From contig JAFSSS010000064.1 in the NCBI GenBank assembly GCA_017450925.1, positions 1 to 39,748 on the forward strand: DNA of 39,748 bases, written 5' to 3'. Shown here in pieces: positions 1 to 39,748 of the stretch. The DNA is from Ruminococcus sp. (GTDB taxonomy: Bacteria; Bacillota; Clostridia; Oscillospirales; Ruminococcaceae). Under the pieces are notes generated by a model. That model was not told the origin of the DNA. It searched no databases and saw only the letters and a list, made by a program, of their open reading frames with translations. Numbering within the stretch: position 1 is the stretch's first letter; each line of letters starts with the position of its first letter. The translations under genes and the position numbers were made by a program.

Positions 1-139
1 CTTGCGAGCGAAGTGTGCTTCGCTTTGCGCAACGTCAAGGAGAATTGACGTCATCTTTGATGACGTTGGTAATCATGACGGAAAGCTGGCAAGCAGATGA
101 TGTGCAGAGGCGTTAGCCGCGGGTCGTGCGGTGTTGCCT
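1..139 (-). repeat. Palindromic MITE-like repeat, copy 1 (cut by window start)
   Basis: This is the inverted-orientation copy of the element also found at 27586-27779 and 39609-39748. Its terminal repeat, read on the minus strand as AGGCAACACCGCACGA, ends at 139 and is followed by TA (140-141). The outer 66 bases match the other copies exactly. Unlike them, it carries an extra internal stem-loop at about 47-71 (GACGTCATC, TTT, GATGACGTT). A second hairpin at about 1-32 is shared with copy 2 apart from one base. No coding capacity is visible. The promoter of the debranching enzyme gene begins about 25 bases beyond its end. Confidence 0.85.
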
Positions 140-163
140 TAGTTAGCTTTTCACAAAAAAGTC

Positions 164-23352: not shown

Positions 23353-26313
23353 ATGGAAAATATTTACAGTCTCGGCATTGATGTGGGTTCAACTACGGTA
23401 AAGACCGTGATCCTTGACGGTGATGAGATAGTCTATAATAAATACGAGCGCCACTTTTCCAAGGTGCGCGAAACAGTGGCAGAGCAGCTGCGCCTTATCG
23501 GCGGGCTCTATCCCGATGCCCGGTTCAGGATAGCTATAACCGGCTCGGCCGGTCTCGGTATCGCCGAGGCCTGCGGCATCACCTTCGTGCAGGAGGTGTT
23601 CTCGGCCTTCACTGCCGTGAACAAGACCTATCCCGACGCGGATGTGGTCGTCGAGCTGGGCGGCGAGGATGCTAAGATCATCTTCCTTACCGGCGGCGTC
23701 GAGCAGAGAATGAACGGCACCTGTGCCGGCGGTACGGGCGCTTTCATCGACCAAATGGCAAGCCTGCTCGGTGTATCTGTGGATGCTATGAACGAAATGT
23801 CGCTCAAAGCCACAAAGATATACCCCATAGCCTCGCGGTGCGGAGTTTTCGCAAAGTCGGATATACAGCCGCTGCTCAATCAAGGGGCTAAGAAGGAGGA
23901 TATCGCCGCTTCGATCTATCAAGCCGTGGTGGATCAGACCGTTTCGGGACTGGCTCAAGGCAGAAAGCTGGAGGGCAAGGTGCTTTTCCTCGGAGGCCCG
24001 CTTTCCTTCCTGTCGGGGCTTCGGAAGGCATTTGTCGATACCTTGAAGCTGGACGAGGAACACGCCGTGTTCCCGGAGCTGGCTCCCTGCTTCATGGCCT
24101 TCGGCTCGGCTCTCCATGCACAGAAAATGGGAGATATAATGACGATCGACGAGGCTATCGACAAGATAACCCACGCCAAGGCTCACGATACTATCGTCAC
24201 CGGCAAGCCCCTCTTCGCCAATAAGGAGGAGTACCGGGAATTTGTGGAAAGACACAAGCAGTCCGATCTTAAATACGAGAATATCGAGACCTACCGGGGC
24301 GATGCCTATCTCGGCATCGACGCCGGCTCAACCACCACAAAGCTGGTGCTGATAACTCCCGACGGCAAGCTGCTCTATCAGTATTACGGCTCAAACAAGG
24401 GTCAGCCACTGGATGTCATCGCCTCAAAGCTCGAGGATATCTATGCCCTCGCCACCGACGGCCTCGTTATCAGAGCCTCTGCCGTAACAGGCTACGGCGA
24501 GGATCTTATCAAGGCCGGCCTCGGCGTGGACTACGGCATCGTCGAGACAGTGGCTCACTACAAGGCCGCCGCTTATTTCTGCCCGGACGTTGATTTCATT
24601 ATCGACATCGGCGGACAGGACATCAAGTGCTTCAAGATCAAAAACAACGCTATCGACAGCATCATGCTCAACGAGGCCTGCTCCTCCGGCTGCGGCTCGT
24701 TTATCCAGACCTTCGCTCAGGCTATGGGCTACGAGATCGCTGACTTCGCAAGACTGGGGCTTTTCGCCAAGGCTCCCGTAGAGCTGGGCTCGCGCTGCAC
24801 CGTGTTCATGAATTCCAGCGTAAAGCAGGCTCAGAAGGACGGCGCTTCGGTCGAGGATATCTCGGCGGGTCTTTCCTCGTCTATCATCAAGAATGCTATA
24901 TATAAGGTAATAAGAGCAAAATCCATTGACGAGCTGGGAAAGAATATCGTGGTACAGGGAGGCACCTTCCTGAACGATGCCGTTCTGCGCTCGTTTGAGA
25001 TGGAGCTGGGAAGAAATGTTATCCGCCCCGCTATCGCAGGACTTATGGGTGCCCTCGGCTGCGCACTCTTCGCCAAGGAGAAGAGCAGACACGACCCCGA
25101 TGCCCGCTCAAAGGTGCTGAACGAGCAGCAGCTCAAGGAATTTGCATACAACTCCTTTGCTACCCAGTGCCGCGGCTGTACCGCTCACTGCAACCTGACC
25201 ATAATCCGCTTCAACGACGGCCACAGGTTCGTTTCCGGCAACCGCTGCGAAAAGGGCGCCGGCATAAAGATCGAGAACAAGCCCGAGAACATGGTGGAGT
25301 TCAAGTATAACGAGATCAAGGCCTATGCCGACAGAAAGCCCGCTCACCCCAAGGCGAGGATAGGCCTGCCGCTGGCTCTCTCCTACTATGACCTCATGCC
25401 CTATTTCAGTACGATGCTCTATGAGCTGGGCTTTGAGGTGGTGCTTTCAGAGGAGAGTACGAGAGAGACCTACTACAAAGGTCAGCAGACTATCCCCTCG
25501 GACACCGTCTGCTATCCCGCAAAGATAACTCACGGACATATCATCAGCCTGCTTGAAAAGGGCGTGGATATGATCTTCTATCCCTGCATGAGCTATAACC
25601 TCGACGAGGGCGGCTCTGACAACCACTACAACTGCCCCGTTGTTGCATACTATCCCGAGCTGCTGAAGGCCAATATGCCGGAGCTGAACGAGCGGAACTT
25701 CAAGGCACCCTACTTAAACATCACCATGAAAAAGCACGTTGCAAAGGTAGTGGCGCAGACCTTCCGCAAGTACGGCATCACCCAGCAGCAGGTGTTCGAT
25801 GTGCTGAACAAGGCCTATACCGAGCAGATGCGCTACCGCAGACGGATAGAAAAGAAGGCGCAGGAGATAATCGCCCACGCAAGAGAAGAGGGGCGGAAGA
25901 TAATCGTCATTGCAGGAAGGCCCTATCATATCGACCCGGAGATCAACCACGGCATCCATAAGCTGATAGCCTCGCTGGGCTTTGCCGTCGTTACCGAGGA
26001 CAGCGTTTCCAATCTGGTAAACGTACCGCCGCTGGACGTACTGAACCAGTGGACTTACCATTCAAGGATGTACCGTGCGGCGGAGTATGTCTGCCGGAAC
26101 GAGGATATGCAGCTGGTGCAGCTGGTATCATTCGGCTGCGGCATAGATGCAGTCACCACTGACGAGGTGAGGGCGATCCTTGAAGAGCGGGGCAAGCTTT
26201 ACACCCAGCTGAAAATAGACGAGATCACGAACCTTGGAGCTGCCAAGATAAGGCTGCGTTCACTGGCAGCCGCATTGGAGGAAAAAGAGGAGGTCCTGCA
26301 AAATGAGCAATAA
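23353..26313 (+). CDS. Acyl-CoA dehydratase activase-like protein, double ASKHA domain
   Basis: The 986-residue protein contains two consecutive BadF/BadG/HgdC-type ATPase domains. Phosphate loops are GIDVGSTTVK (about 8-17) and GIDAGSTTTK (about 318-328). In HgdC a dimer holds one [4Fe-4S] cluster through two cysteines 39 residues apart; here each half has such a pair, C124/C163 and C443/C482, so one chain could hold a full cluster. The C-terminal part (from about 670, LPLALSYYDLMPYFS and ESTRETYYKGQQ) matches the DUF2229/HgdB-like region. It probably delivers electrons by ATP-driven reduction; the dehydratase or reductase partner is unknown. It overlaps the next gene by 11 bases in another frame. 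Confidence 0.85.
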   Translation: MENIYSLGIDVGSTTVKTVILDGDEIVYNKYERHFSKVRETVAEQLRLIGGLYPDARFRIAITGSAGLGIAEACGITFVQEVFSAFTAVNKTYPDADVVVELGGEDAKIIFLTGGVEQRMNGTCAGGTGAFIDQMASLLGVSVDAMNEMSLKATKIYPIASRCGVFAKSDIQPLLNQGAKKEDIAASIYQAVVDQTVSGLAQGRKLEGKVLFLGGPLSFLSGLRKAFVDTLKLDEEHAVFPELAPCFMAFGSALHAQKMGDIMTIDEAIDKITHAKAHDTIVTGKPLFANKEEYREFVERHKQSDLKYENIETYRGDAYLGIDAGSTTTKLVLITPDGKLLYQYYGSNKGQPLDVIASKLEDIYALATDGLVIRASAVTGYGEDLIKAGLGVDYGIVETVAHYKAAAYFCPDVDFIIDIGGQDIKCFKIKNNAIDSIMLNEACSSGCGSFIQTFAQAMGYEIADFARLGLFAKAPVELGSRCTVFMNSSVKQAQKDGASVEDISAGLSSSIIKNAIYKVIRAKSIDELGKNIVVQGGTFLNDAVLRSFEMELGRNVIRPAIAGLMGALGCALFAKEKSRHDPDARSKVLNEQQLKEFAYNSFATQCRGCTAHCNLTIIRFNDGHRFVSGNRCEKGAGIKIENKPENMVEFKYNEIKAYADRKPAHPKARIGLPLALSYYDLMPYFSTMLYELGFEVVLSEESTRETYYKGQQTIPSDTVCYPAKITHGHIISLLEKGVDMIFYPCMSYNLDEGGSDNHYNCPVVAYYPELLKANMPELNERNFKAPYLNITMKKHVAKVVAQTFRKYGITQQQVFDVLNKAYTEQMRYRRRIEKKAQEIIAHAREEGRKIIVIAGRPYHIDPEINHGIHKLIASLGFAVVTEDSVSNLVNVPPLDVLNQWTYHSRMYRAAEYVCRNEDMQLVQLVSFGCGIDAVTTDEVRAILEERGKLYTQLKIDEITNLGAAKIRLRSLAAALEEKEEVLQNEQ

Positions 26314-27586
26314 GCTGTCTGATGAAGAAATAGCAAGAAAAAATATGGGCGGGTCTGACCGCGTTTTCAAAACGGTCTTCACAAAGGAGATGAAGGAGGC
26401 CGGATATACTATCCTTATCCCCGATATGCTGCCTATCCATTTCAAGCTGATGACTAAAATATATCAGAAGAACGGCTATAAAATGGAGCTGCTGACAAAC
26501 AACTCCCGCAACGTCATCGACGAGGGTCTGAAAAATACCCATAACGATGCCTGCTACCCCGCTCTGCTGGTAATCGGCCAGTTCATGGACGCCCTCAAGA
26601 GCGGTAAGTATGACGTGAATAAGGTGGCGCTCGTAATGTCCCAGACCGGCGGCGGCTGCAGAGCCTCAAATTATATCCACCTTATAAGAAAGGCCGTGGC
26701 CTCGCAGTTCCCGCAGGTGCCGGTCATCTCACTCAATTTCAGCGGACTTGAAAAAAACCCCGCCTTTCCCATGACCCCCAAGATCGCTCTTATGCTGATC
26801 TATGCCGTCCTTTACGGCGATATGCTTATGCTGCTCTATAACCAGTGCCGCCCCTATGAACTCAATAAGGGCGATACCGACCGTATGCTCGCCCGCTGGC
26901 AGCACCGCCTCGATAAGCTTATGGATAAGAAATCCTACCTCTATACCACACCGATCTATAAGGCAATGCTCAGGGACTTCGCATCTATCCCCCGCAGCAG
27001 CGAGAAAAAGCCCCGGGTGGGCATCGTGGGAGAGATCTTCGTAAAGTATTCTCCGCTGGCAAATAACGAGCTTAACGAGTTTCTGATCTCCGAGAACTGC
27101 GAGCCGAACGTCCCCGGCCTGCTGGACTTCGTCCTCTACTGCGCCTCTGACCTTATCAACGATAAAGCCCTCTATGACGTGAACACCGCCTCCACCAAGG
27201 CCTATGCCGTCGGCTATAAGGTGCTTTATAAGTTCCAGAAGCAGCAGATAAGGATCATCAAGGAGCATGGTGTGTTCCAGCCGCCCCACGATTTCGAGCA
27301 TCTGCGCCGCTGCGCCGATAAGTACATCCACCAGGGCGTGAAAATGGGCGAGGGCTGGCTTATCACAGCCGAAATGGCTGCCCTTGCCGAGACCGGCACC
27401 AAGAATATAATCTGCACCCAGCCCTTCGGCTGTCTGCCGAACCATATCGTCGCAAAGGGCATGAGCCGCGTTATCAAGCAGGCCTATCCCGATGCAAATA
27501 TCGTAGCTATCGACTATGACCCGGGTGCAACCAAGGTCAATCAGGAGAACCGCATCAAGCTTATGCTTGCAAATGCAGTGCTTTAA
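26303..27586 (+). CDS. Acyl-CoA dehydratase activase-related protein, C-terminal partner
   Basis: This 427-residue protein matches the region that, as I recall, ends single-chain activase-like proteins of about 1400 residues in many Clostridia. It resembles the HgdB/2-hydroxyacyl-CoA dehydratase type (segments MSQTGGGCRASNYIHLIRK and ITAEMAALAETGTKNIICTQ). It starts at ATG 26303 inside the preceding gene and in a different frame, with GAGGAGG nine bases upstream, so it looks like a genuine coupled gene rather than a frameshift. Its TAA stop is formed by the junction with repeat copy 2, so the original C-terminus may have been slightly different. Confidence 0.8.
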   Translation: MSNKLSDEEIARKNMGGSDRVFKTVFTKEMKEAGYTILIPDMLPIHFKLMTKIYQKNGYKMELLTNNSRNVIDEGLKNTHNDACYPALLVIGQFMDALKSGKYDVNKVALVMSQTGGGCRASNYIHLIRKAVASQFPQVPVISLNFSGLEKNPAFPMTPKIALMLIYAVLYGDMLMLLYNQCRPYELNKGDTDRMLARWQHRLDKLMDKKSYLYTTPIYKAMLRDFASIPRSSEKKPRVGIVGEIFVKYSPLANNELNEFLISENCEPNVPGLLDFVLYCASDLINDKALYDVNTASTKAYAVGYKVLYKFQKQQIRIIKEHGVFQPPHDFEHLRRCADKYIHQGVKMGEGWLITAEMAALAETGTKNIICTQPFGCLPNHIVAKGMSRVIKQAYPDANIVAIDYDPGATKVNQENRIKLMLANAVL

Positions 27587-27779
27587 GGCAACACCGCACG
27601 ACCCGCGGCTAACGCCTCTGCACATCATCTGCTTGCCAGCTTTCCGTCATATTACCCAAATTCTCCTTGACGTTGCGCAAAGCGAAGTACACTTCGCTCG
27701 CAAGCCTGCGTCGAATTTAGGCAATCTGACGAAAATCTGGACGGCGCATCTGATGCACAGGGATCGTGCGGTGTTGCCT
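27586..27779 (+). repeat. Palindromic MITE-like repeat, copy 2 (complete)
   Basis: This is the complete 194-bp copy. The ends AGGCAACACCGCACGA and TCGTGCGGTGTTGCCT are perfect inverted repeats flanked by TA on both sides (27584-27585 and 27780-27781). The arms continue to pair imperfectly inward: CGTCATATTACCCAAATT (from about 27648) faces a near-complement of AATTTAGGCAATCTGACG. The centre holds a strong hairpin, AGCGAAGT-AC-ACTTCGCT, inside TTGCG/CGCAA. It has no coding capacity. The TA plus the first A of the element form the stop codon of the upstream gene. Confidence 0.88.
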
Positions 27780-27811: not shown

Positions 27812-27847
27812 AAATGGGTATTCCCCCGAGCGGGGGAATACCCATTT
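27812..27847. terminator. Bidirectional terminator between the activase operon and queC
   Basis: A 16-bp perfect stem (27812-27827 with 27832-27847) built on GGGTATTCCCCC and GGGGGAATACCC carries A and T runs on its two sides. It separates convergent genes and shares its stem core with 3685-3722. Confidence 0.85.
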
Positions 27848-27883
27848 TGCGCTTTATGCCATGCTGTTCAGCAGTCCTTTTTG

Positions 27884-37649: not shown

Positions 37650-38870
37650 TCAGCCTATTCTCCGCATGACCACGGTAACGCTCATTTTTCCCCCGTCACA
37701 GCGGGCGAAGATATCGCCGTTCATCCTGCTCATAAGCTGGCGGCAGATGTAAAGGCCGAGGCCGCTGCCCGGCTTTCCGCCGGAGTTGGAGCCCCGCCAG
37801 AAGCTGTCGAAGATATGAGGCGTTTCCTCGTCCGGGAGGGTGCAGCCGGTGTTCGTCACTGTTATCAGCCGGCAGTCCTCTTCATCCTCGGCGGTGATGC
37901 TTATCCGTTTCCCGTCGCCGTATTTCAGAGCATTCTCCATAAGGTTCTGCATGACCTCCTCCGCCCGGGCAGGGTCACAGGAGATAAGGCAGTCGCTGAA
38001 ATCTCCTATCTCCAGCTCTGTATGCTCCCGCTCAAGCCGGTCGGTATAGTGTTCCTTTATCCCCCCTATCAGCTCCGAAACATACATCTCTCCCGGCCTA
38101 ACCTCCAGAGCCAGAAAATCTCCGCCGGCTGAATCCATAAGCTGAACGGTGTAGTTCTCTATCTCTCCAGCCTTTGCCGCGATGCCCTTGTATATCTCCT
38201 GCAGCTTGGCCTCGTCCTTGTAAAGCCCTCTGGACAAGGCGCTTGCATACAGCTTGATCGCCGAAAGGGGCGTTTTTATGTCGTGAGATATGGAAAGCAG
38301 CAGCGTCTGCTTGTCCCTGTGCAGCTCCAGCTCACGGCGGTGCTGCTCCTCAATGCTCTCTCTAAGCATATCCGTTCCCCAGATATACCGCCCGAAATAC
38401 CGGCTCCGGCTCTCCTTTAGGGGCATCGCCAGATTGCCGCGGCTAAGCTGATAGGGCACCTCGCTCATCTCGTTGAAGGGCTTTATTATCTGACGGTAAA
38501 TATAGACAAGCACCGTCAGCGTCACCAGCGCACCGGCACCCAGCGCAAGATTCAGGGCTATGCGTCCGCTGCTGCCGGACTTTTCGGCAGCGTAGTCAAA
38601 GCGATAGACCCTGCCGGCGGCATAACGGAAAATGCAGCGGCCGTTATAGGCATAGATGCTGCCGCTTCCGTCATCACTGACCATTCCCGTAATGTACCTG
38701 CATTCAGAAAGGTCGGGCTCCTCTCCCTGCTCCAGCGCATGACAGAGGCGCTCGGCCTCTACTATGTAAAGCCTGTTATCATCACCGCCGGCATACTGCA
38801 CATTAAAGACCGCGAACAAGCCCGCAAACAGCAGCAGCACCGCCGCAATAAGTATCCTATAGCTTTTCAT
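37650..38870 (-). CDS. Sensor histidine kinase
   Basis: The 406-residue membrane kinase has a first membrane helix (about 5-23), an extracytoplasmic sensor of about 80 residues, a second helix (about 105-127) and a HAMP-like linker. The H-box is SHDIKTPLSA with His196, the N-box NLMENALKYG with Asn313, and the G-boxes ITVTNTG and GSGLGLYI. Its start overlaps the response regulator stop in an ATGA arrangement (38867-38870), so the two form one system. The small sensor gives no clue to the signal. Confidence 0.93.
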   Translation of the reverse strand: MKSYRILIAAVLLLFAGLFAVFNVQYAGGDDNRLYIVEAERLCHALEQGEEPDLSECRYITGMVSDDGSGSIYAYNGRCIFRYAAGRVYRFDYAAEKSGSSGRIALNLALGAGALVTLTVLVYIYRQIIKPFNEMSEVPYQLSRGNLAMPLKESRSRYFGRYIWGTDMLRESIEEQHRRELELHRDKQTLLLSISHDIKTPLSAIKLYASALSRGLYKDEAKLQEIYKGIAAKAGEIENYTVQLMDSAGGDFLALEVRPGEMYVSELIGGIKEHYTDRLEREHTELEIGDFSDCLISCDPARAEEVMQNLMENALKYGDGKRISITAEDEEDCRLITVTNTGCTLPDEETPHIFDSFWRGSNSGGKPGSGLGLYICRQLMSRMNGDIFARCDGGKMSVTVVMRRIG

Positions 38871-39529
38871 TGGAATTTATACCCCACGCCCCAGACAGTC
38901 AGTATATGCTCCGGCTTTTTCGGGTCGGCCTCGAGCTTTTCCCGAAGCCGCTTGATATGCACCGTCACCGTCTGAAGCTCCGTCTCCGAGTCGCTCCCCC
39001 AAATATAGGAGAAAATGTATTCCTTTGTCAGCGTCTTCCCAGGGTTTTCCGCCAGCAGGAGCAGAAGGTCATATTCTTTTGCCGTCATCTCCAAAGCCTC
39101 TCCCCTAAGCGACGCCGTCCGCTCACTGCGGTTCAGCACCAGCTCGCCGCATTTAAGCTCGTCCAGCGAATATCTCCGCCGAAACAGCCCGGTTATCTTC
39201 GCCAGCAGCAGGTCAATGTCAAAGGGCTTCTCTATGTAATCATCCGCTCCGATAACAAGACCGTTGAGCTTATCGTTCTTGTCCGTCCGGGCGCTTATTA
39301 TAAAGATCGGCACATCACTGCTGCGTCTTATCTTCTCACAGACCGCAAAGCCGTCCATGCCCTCGATCATCACATCCAGCAGCAGCAGCTTTGCTCCGTA
39401 GCGCTCGAACAGCTCCACCGCCTTGTCGCCGCTGTCCGTCCGGCTGACGGTGTAGCCCTCTGCCCGCAGAAAATCGCAGAGCATCTCCGATATCTCCTTA
39501 TTGTCCTCAACCACAAGAATATCTATCAT
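38867..39529 (-). CDS. OmpR-family response regulator
   Basis: The 220-residue regulator has a receiver domain (1-115; phospho-acceptor Asp52 in LLLLDVMIEG and Lys101 in YIEKPF) and a winged-helix domain (about 125-220). I place the start at ATG 39529, behind GGGGTGGGG. It precedes its kinase gene. A terminator-like hairpin lies just upstream with no clear promoter between, so expression may depend on read-through or on a weak promoter. Targets are unknown. Confidence 0.92.
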   Translation of the reverse strand: MIDILVVEDNKEISEMLCDFLRAEGYTVSRTDSGDKAVELFERYGAKLLLLDVMIEGMDGFAVCEKIRRSSDVPIFIISARTDKNDKLNGLVIGADDYIEKPFDIDLLLAKITGLFRRRYSLDELKCGELVLNRSERTASLRGEALEMTAKEYDLLLLLAENPGKTLTKEYIFSYIWGSDSETELQTVTVHIKRLREKLEADPKKPEHILTVWGVGYKFQ

Positions 39530-39562
39530 ACATTCCCCACCCCTTTGCACTTGGCGCATATC

Positions 39563-39597: not shown

Positions 39598-39608
39598 GGT
39601 GTTATTTT

Positions 39609-39748
39609 AGGCAACACCGCACGACCCGCGGCTAACGCCTCTGCACATCATCTGCTTGCCAGCTTTCCGTCATATTACCCAAATTCTCCTTGACTTGCGT
39701 CAGCAAGCCTGCGTCGAATTTAGGCAATCTGACGAAAAGCTGGACGGC
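39609..39748 (+). repeat. Palindromic MITE-like repeat, copy 3 (cut by window end)
   Basis: This copy has the same orientation as copy 2 and matches it almost throughout. The exception is the centre, where the long hairpin of copy 2 is replaced by the short CTTGC-GTCA-GCAAG. The right arm (GACGAAAAGCTGG) restores better pairing with AGCTTTCCGTC of the left arm than copy 2 does. The left flank reads TTTTAGG, so the TA flank is ambiguous here. The right end lies outside the window. Confidence 0.85.

Follow-up and report, generated by a model that had tools for sequence, protein, structure and literature searches.

An IS5-family MITE of Ruminococcaceae with exchangeable hairpin modules and a strand-specific fold that is probably under selection

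We found that a short palindromic element, present three times in the window (the whole stretch of 39,748 nucleotides that was analyzed), is a non-autonomous MITE of the IS5 family, and we think it rather probable, though well short of certain, that it carries a strand-specific fold, probably of RNA, that is under selection. The element shares ends of 13–15 nt with an IS5-family insertion sequence (IS), makes 4-bp TTAA-like duplications, occurs in many copies, holds no conserved ORF and is missing from one empty site. Its two arms co-vary, and the pairs that are not Watson-Crick are mostly G-U on the minus strand, whichever way the neighboring genes point. This strand polarity and the conservation of the core across the order are new, and both had been missed by an earlier, sequence-only reading of the same DNA.

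Results

Three copies of the element in the window

The window is the entire contig C38 of a fragmented metagenome-assembled genome (MAG) of a Ruminococcus-like rumen bacterium (2.03 Mb, 83 contigs, 67% complete). For the protein encoded beside copy 2, the nearest named record, at 93% identity, comes from a MAG of an uncultured Ruminococcus sp. The sequence-only reading had placed copies at 1–139, 27586–27779 and 39609–39748; the three places are right, and the limits become 1–138, 27587–27778 and 39610–39748 (Table 1). Copy 2 is the sole complete copy of the three. Copies 1 and 3 are truncated by the contig ends and show a single end each, so the pair of perfect 16-bp terminal repeats that had been ascribed to all copies is present in copy 2 and can be checked only there. 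The outer arm, described as 66 bases identical in all copies, is 66 nt in copies 1 and 2, and 65 nt are common to all three, with copy 3 differing at the first base. The hairpin differences had been seen correctly: copy 1 has the GACGTCATC/GATGACGT hairpin and an apex module (its S4 module site lies outside the visible part), copy 2 has the AGCGAAGT/ACTTCGCT apex module, which is why its core is 155 nt long, and copy 3 is the base form. It is also true that the element folds back on itself; as RNA, copy 2 folds 12.0 s.d. (minus strand, –113.9 kcal/mol) and 8.0 s.d. (plus strand, –87.4 kcal/mol) better than dinucleotide shuffles. In the source MAG, 24 of the 30 copies that were retrieved first sit at contig ends, and we infer that the ends of the window are assembly breaks at the repeat.

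Several features lie beside the copies. The insertion of copy 2 is at a TTAA that holds the stop of the upstream ORF (27584–27586), and the stop is retained; this ORF has a DUF2229 match below the cut-off (E 4e-5). Shortly after copy 2 there is a perfect terminator-like palindrome, GGGTATTCCCCCGAGCGGGGGAATACCC, at 27812–27850, and similar palindromes recur in the source genome and in other genomes of the genus, most often in G014. Copy 3 lies approximately 50 bp upstream of the start of a response regulator gene (38870–39559, minus strand).

Table 1. Coordinates of the element copies and their parts in the window.
Feature	Position	Strand	Basis
Copy 2, complete element, 192 bp (base form plus one apex hairpin module)	27587..27778	+	sequence; full copy between terminal repeats (L013); core model match 137 bits
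Left 4-bp target duplication TTAA, includes the TAA stop of ORF 26303–27586	27583..27586	.	sequence
Right 4-bp target duplication TTAA	27779..27782	.	sequence
Left terminal inverted repeat GGCAACACCGCACGA	27587..27601	+	end type as in IS5-family element G000:C16:33878-34984
Right terminal inverted repeat of copy 2	27764..27778	-	sequence
Conserved core of copy 2, covariance model R1	27605..27759	+	model match; minus is the better folding strand
Small side hairpin GGC-GTTA-GCC (minus strand) of copy 2	27607..27616	-	missing from the three 159-bp full copies
Apex hairpin module of copy 2, site S3; about 20 nt more than base form; limits approximate	27677..27699	.	sequence, module comparison
CAAG of apex internal loop, conserved	27666..27669	-	invariant columns 62–65 of 18 sequences; replaced in some distant copies
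CGCAGG of apex internal loop, conserved	27705..27710	-	alignment of copies
Copy 1, truncated at contig start, outer end at 138	1..138	-	sequence, core model
Copy 1 apex module (S3); limits approximate	5..29	.	module type as in other copies
Copy 1 second-site module (S2), GACGTCATC/GATGACGT hairpin; limits approximate	45..68	.	module type also in other G000 copies
Flank TTAG beside copy 1, one side only	139..142	.	sequence
Copy 3, base form as far as present, truncated at contig end	39610..39748	+	sequence, core model
Flank TTTA beside copy 3, one side only	39606..39609	.	sequence

Copy number, base form and hairpin modules

The exact 15-nt end of the element has 86 matches (41+45) in the 2.03 Mb of the source genome (G000), as compared to none for a reversed-pattern control, so the further copies are far from chance. 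In other genomes, the same 15-mer has 79+56 matches in G013, 9+12 in G020 and none in G017, and the control gave 0 in all four genomes. We found at least 25 full-length matches at 100% to an 87-nt query in the source genome (40 of 109 candidates scored), and it is plausible that the element was recently active, as had been inferred from the window.

To describe the full form, we extracted 50 distinct full copies between their terminal repeats from retrieved loci of several genomes. The base form (GGC...GCC) is 172 bp, which is the length of 24 of the 50; 48 copies are 159–231 bp long, and the remaining two are 79 and 299 bp. Three 159-bp full copies are without the small side hairpin. The element is short and free of a transposase, and there is no conserved ORF. 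Longer forms are the base form with added hairpins of approximately 16–20 nt at four sites, where S1 lies opposite S4 in the stem, S2 lies above them and S3 prolongs the apex. In 87 whole or partial copies from seven genomes of the genus that hold the anchor sequence, modules are present in 12 of 87 (S1), 7 of 87 (S2), 20 of 75 (S3) and 8 of 38 (S4) scorable copies. Taken over the whole genus, all four combinations occur for all six pairs of sites (for two pairs in G013 by itself, for no pair in G000 by itself), a pattern that either recombination between copies or repeated gain and loss would produce. The copies, the lack of a conserved ORF and these combinations bear out the idea of a multi-copy, non-autonomous, MITE-like element with exchangeable loop hairpins.

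The three modules of one 231-nt copy each form a hairpin of their own, and the stem that bears them is otherwise unbroken. The 299-bp copy (L099:2723-3021, G000) has the S4 hairpin unit four times in tandem, and its fold is less simple. There are also minimal derivatives that consist mostly of ends, one of 79 bp (L097:2367-2445, G000) flanked by TTAA/TTAA and one of 46 bp (L069:1954-1999, G020) flanked by CTAA/TAAA. At L453 (G682:C30:7200-9200), three near-identical copies lie in the same orientation approximately 349 bp apart, and their flanks match as well.

Target duplications and the partner insertion sequence

Both flanks are available for 49 of the 50 full copies, the remaining one lying at a contig start. 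Identical 4-bp sequences flank 40 of the 49, and 9 have 4-bp flanks that do not match; other duplication lengths do not fit. TTAA accounts for 30 of the 40, and nine exact duplications are non-palindromic (for example TTGA/TTGA, CTAA/CTAA and TTTA/TTTA). A 4-bp YTAR duplication is usual for part of the IS5 family.

An IS with matching ends, which the sequence-only reading had suggested looking for, is present in the same genome. It is 1107 bp long (G000:C16:33878-34984), has the ends GGCAATACCGCAC/GGCAACACCGCAC with TTAG on both sides, and encodes a 322-aa transposase of the IS5 family (NF033581, 290 bits, cut-off 140). By eye, the element and this IS are alike in the outer 13–15 nt only. The IS is rare: with a threshold of E <= 1e-40, we found homologues in 11 of 297 genomes of the family, the source genome included. 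The end type of the source-genome IS recurs in the homologues at 58–60% identity (G138, G170, G217), and in G138 and G217 related IS and type A elements (see below) are both present. A second IS clade at 42–43% identity (G316, G228) has GGGAAACGCTGAATAAATC-type ends and is also IS5 by model (L226). A search for PF01609 transposases gave no match in G013, which has 135 matches to the element end. We rejected L081 (958 bp between end-like sequences) as a second IS, as by eye it holds no transposase-like frame. At L210:947-2779 (G017), we noted an ISAs1-family transposase gene (NF033564) that lies within an inverted pair of 165-bp copies of a related hairpin element; this element has different ends and the same CGCAGG...CAAGG apex.

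Comparison with empty sites gave one interpretable case. We searched with five G013 sites against 16 genomes of the genus, and one of the five gave a match across the junction: the copy at L112:1457-1647 interrupts a frame that is continuous in the G006 orthologue at approximately 75% identity. For the site in the window, we found nine orthologous loci without the element, with downstream sequence too divergent to align for a clean join. Among all 80 loci around the gene beside copy 2 there is one core match (L182), which is elsewhere in the locus.

A conserved core with varying ends

To follow the interior of the element, we used a covariance model built from 18 cores on the plus strand. The core of approximately 135 nt is found in 97 of 396 genomes of the family and 36 of 126 genera at E <= 1e-5, and in 60 of the 396 genomes at E <= 1e-15. 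In an order-wide search, 23 of 394 genomes have the core at E <= 1e-8, and 13 of these belong to four other families. The aligned copies show strong conservation of the apex internal loop CGCAGG/CAAG (minus strand), which is weaker in distant copies. We found no match to the element in a plasmid search, and a phage search gave two weak partial matches in unannotated records.

Around the same core we found several types of ends: type A GGCAAYACCGCAC, type C GGAARCACTGATTAAATC with near variants, type B GGTCACCTCTAAAAACC (G017, G316) and others. Two of the end types are similar to those of different IS5 transposase clades. The IS that we found with type C ends do not come from the genomes in which we examined type C elements, and among the IS examined none has type B ends (GGTCACC). 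The same core with different ends means that ends were exchanged or that they changed step by step. Copy L432 of G237 has one C-like end (GGAAACACTG...) and one A-like end (GGCAACACCG...), which by its sequence speaks for exchange; other copies of this genome (L366, L433, L437) have intermediate ends.

The minus strand folds better

We compared the folds of the two strands in 37 base-form elements from many genera. The minus-strand consensus has –82.3 kcal/mol and 65 pairs, 48 of which show changes on both sides; the plus-strand consensus has –34.1 kcal/mol and 48 pairs, and both sides have changed in 40 of these. The minus strand is the more stable in 37 of 37 elements, with a mean gap of 26.4 kcal/mol, and G-U is the commonest pair at four positions. 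In this set, 96.3% of cells are paired; slid controls gave 35–47% and 0 of 500 shuffles reach the observed value, where related sequences can exceed shuffles without any structure. Over the window, 0 Rfam families reached gathering score, and a further Rfam search gave two matches that fell well short of it (15.4 of 125 and 12.8 of 330 bits).

Mismatches are polarized toward G-U on the minus strand

An A-C mismatch on the plus strand is a G-U pair on the minus strand. We counted the non-Watson-Crick cells of the aligned cores on the plus strand. In a first set (89 distinct 135-nt cores of 105 aligned), there are 106 A-C, 17 G-T and 36 other cells. Counted as events per pair and genus, these are 54 A-C and 15 G-T, and A-C is ahead in 10 of the 10 genera with events (12 represented). 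In a second set of 91 cores, we found 141 A-C, 47 G-T and 102 other cells, or 65 A-C and 33 G-T events, with A-C leading in 12 of 20 groups, G-T in 5 and ties in 3, and a per-pair sign count of only 14 to 9. Events are non-independent in both sets, and the second set is of limited strength and independence: nine of its loci without a genus label were counted as groups of their own, and it has one copy and several genera in common with the first. Since the covariance model was built on the plus strand, it should bias against a result that favors G-U on the minus strand.

As a control within genomes, we took the 18 genomes with at least four copies and counted the same classes of change at paired and unpaired sites. 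Pair-breaking changes stand at 56 to 27, as compared to 84 to 123 at unpaired sites (Fisher p 5e-5). The skew is thus absent at unpaired sites, and we rejected mutation bias as its cause. When all transitions at paired sites within genomes were tallied in a cruder way, the result was 48 to 40. Mismatches at the level of the consensus are 11 to 1, and their difference from the within-genome ones is non-significant (p 0.10). The pairs of the terminal repeats are also skewed (75 to 16, with 32 of them from one position).

The polarity does not follow the neighboring genes. The ratio of A-C to G-T is alike in both orientations of the flanking genes, at 64:15 (52 copies) and 77:23 (56 copies), which argues against flanking transcription as its cause. 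Nor is the direction of the flanking genes biased: in tallies made from open frames rather than gene calls, we found 45 vs 41 scored sides (86 of 296 sides, 148 copies), and an earlier tally gave 18 against 21 co-directional among 69 copies. With neighboring genes in either direction, the polarity is not accounted for by a simple cis effect in mRNA, and the two unbiased tallies speak against a cis function in mRNA with a preferred orientation.

Discussion

A mobile element with a constrained single strand

Taken together, these data point to an element that an IS5-type transposase would mobilize through its ends, as the ends and the duplications suggest. What is selected would be the fold that the minus strand adopts as a single strand, and in the propagating copies this is most likely a hairpin of RNA. 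The polarity suggests that a single strand is constrained, rather than duplex DNA or a cruciform, and RNA is the likeliest such strand; as the polarity is independent of the flanking genes, selection probably takes place in those copies from which others arise. Optional side hairpins may be added at the loops, where they would be tolerated because the backbone stays intact. Recombination between copies, to which the combinations of modules and the copy with two different ends point, probably shuffles both side hairpins and ends. The strong conservation of the CGCAGG/CAAG apex internal loop makes it a natural candidate for a protein contact, and our best guess is that transcripts made from active copies may help the element itself or the tolerance of the element by its host.

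In a bolder form of this proposal, the mobile structured RNA could be the real unit of selection, a hairpin of approximately 170 nt conserved across an order of gut bacteria that gains new transposon ends by recombination, and so changes its carrier transposase, with exchangeable side hairpins like expansion segments. We put this forward tentatively and would not bet on it.

Other explanations

Self-correction of a palindrome, by template switching or gene conversion, could keep the arms of an ordinary MITE complementary, with the modules as by-products of the same replication errors and no function of an RNA. Template switching between arms can keep up covariation without selection, and it would fit that the arms co-vary nearly everywhere, terminal repeats included, that the modules are palindromic and freely combined, and that the side-hairpin unit of L099 is tandemly repeated. 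However, such self-correction does not predict mismatches that favor G-U on one strand, an interior that is kept while the ends differ between genera, or the conservation of the unpaired CGCAGG/CAAG, and we consider it unlikely.

The selected fold might also be that of one strand of single-stranded DNA, exposed for example at replication or transposition, instead of RNA. A G-T mismatch is more stable than an A-C mismatch in DNA, so a DNA fold would likewise prefer the former, and the polarity is similar for both orientations of the flanking genes. In contrast, the ends and the duplications are those of a DDE element, and the orientation of the element has no clear bias with respect to the sign of the local GC skew (13 with, 8 against, p 0.38, for 21 copies in 20 stretches of two genomes, several with skews near zero). 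We regard a selected DNA fold as distinctly improbable.

A conserved small peptide on the minus strand (MTExxQADxVQ...) would account for the ATG found in 35 of 37 base-form elements; however, the frame is open to the end in only 21 of the 37, variation at the codon positions is 94/70/70 with no excess at the third, and the S1 module shifts the frame, so we rejected a coding role, which has very little probability left. The sequence-only reading had placed the element with IS630/Tc1-mariner MITEs and expected a TA target duplication, and while many target sites do contain TA, the 4-bp duplications, including the TA-less TTGA, and the IS5-family partner transposase (NF033581) speak against both claims and leave that affiliation with practically no chance of being right.

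Relation to known repeats

IS5-family IS (NF033581) and their MITEs share with the element ends that start with GG, a 4-bp duplication and a DDE transposase with matching ends, and differ in that only the outer 13–15 nt, as judged by eye, are common to both, whereas the interior of the element is conserved across genera. In REP/RAYT systems, there are no terminal repeats with target duplication and the transposase is of the HUH type; we rejected this class, as the element has terminal repeats and 4-bp duplications. The bcr1 repeat is a mobile small repeat with RNA structure, and we know of no exchange of its ends. It is named as a MITE in PMC3733652. It differs from the element in being confined, by the title of the paper that describes it, to the Bacillus cereus group.

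BOX elements of Streptococcus are described as modular short repeats in which the inner boxB is optional and, in its predicted fold, makes few contacts with the remainder, and some are transcribed (PMC3049150). The likeness is one of architecture, optional modules that fold apart; in contrast to the order boxA-boxB-boxC with boxB in tandem, our element adds single side hairpins at several separate loops of one long hairpin, and we found one tandem array (L099). Correia/NEMIS elements are described as MITEs with a stem-loop RNA and size variants that arise through one 50-bp internal segment, and the hairpins of their transcripts are proposed targets of RNase III (PMC2229807). The element is likewise a MITE with a predicted stem-loop and size variants from internal segments, although it has several small hairpins at four sites instead of one 50-bp segment. 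For ERIC, the same source reports an effect on mRNA that depends on the orientation of the element (PMC2229807), so strand polarity has a precedent, but the polarity of our element is a substitution pattern and is independent of the orientation of flanking genes.

Within the titles and abstract openings that we searched, a scope outside which lie most subscription papers and bioRxiv preprints, no such element is described, and Ruminococcus is not mentioned in the main text of a review of MITEs (PMC10969869), as far as we consulted it. A literature search with three fragments of the ends gave no paper with more than one fragment and none with GTGCGGTGTTGCC, which contains the shorter fragment; papers with GGCAACACCGCAC alone are possible. 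From the comparison with known systems, and as no Rfam family matches at gathering score, we file the element as an IS5-family MITE that combines its features in a new way rather than as a new class.

Implications

It looks as if the same folded middle has been kept across many genera of gut and rumen bacteria while ends and side hairpins were exchanged, and what is protected is apparently a folded single strand. A MITE is usually seen as a pair of ends that matter, around an interior that decays. In this element it is the interior that lasts from genus to genus, between ends that vary, and the pattern of substitutions gives a strand direction. A general question can thereby be put to the test: do some MITEs serve as vehicles of functional RNAs, and are they able to change their transposase? 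As the element breaks assemblies (24 of the first 30 copies retrieved from the source MAG are at contig ends), its role in the genome plasticity of rumen Ruminococcus would be partly hidden in short-read data.
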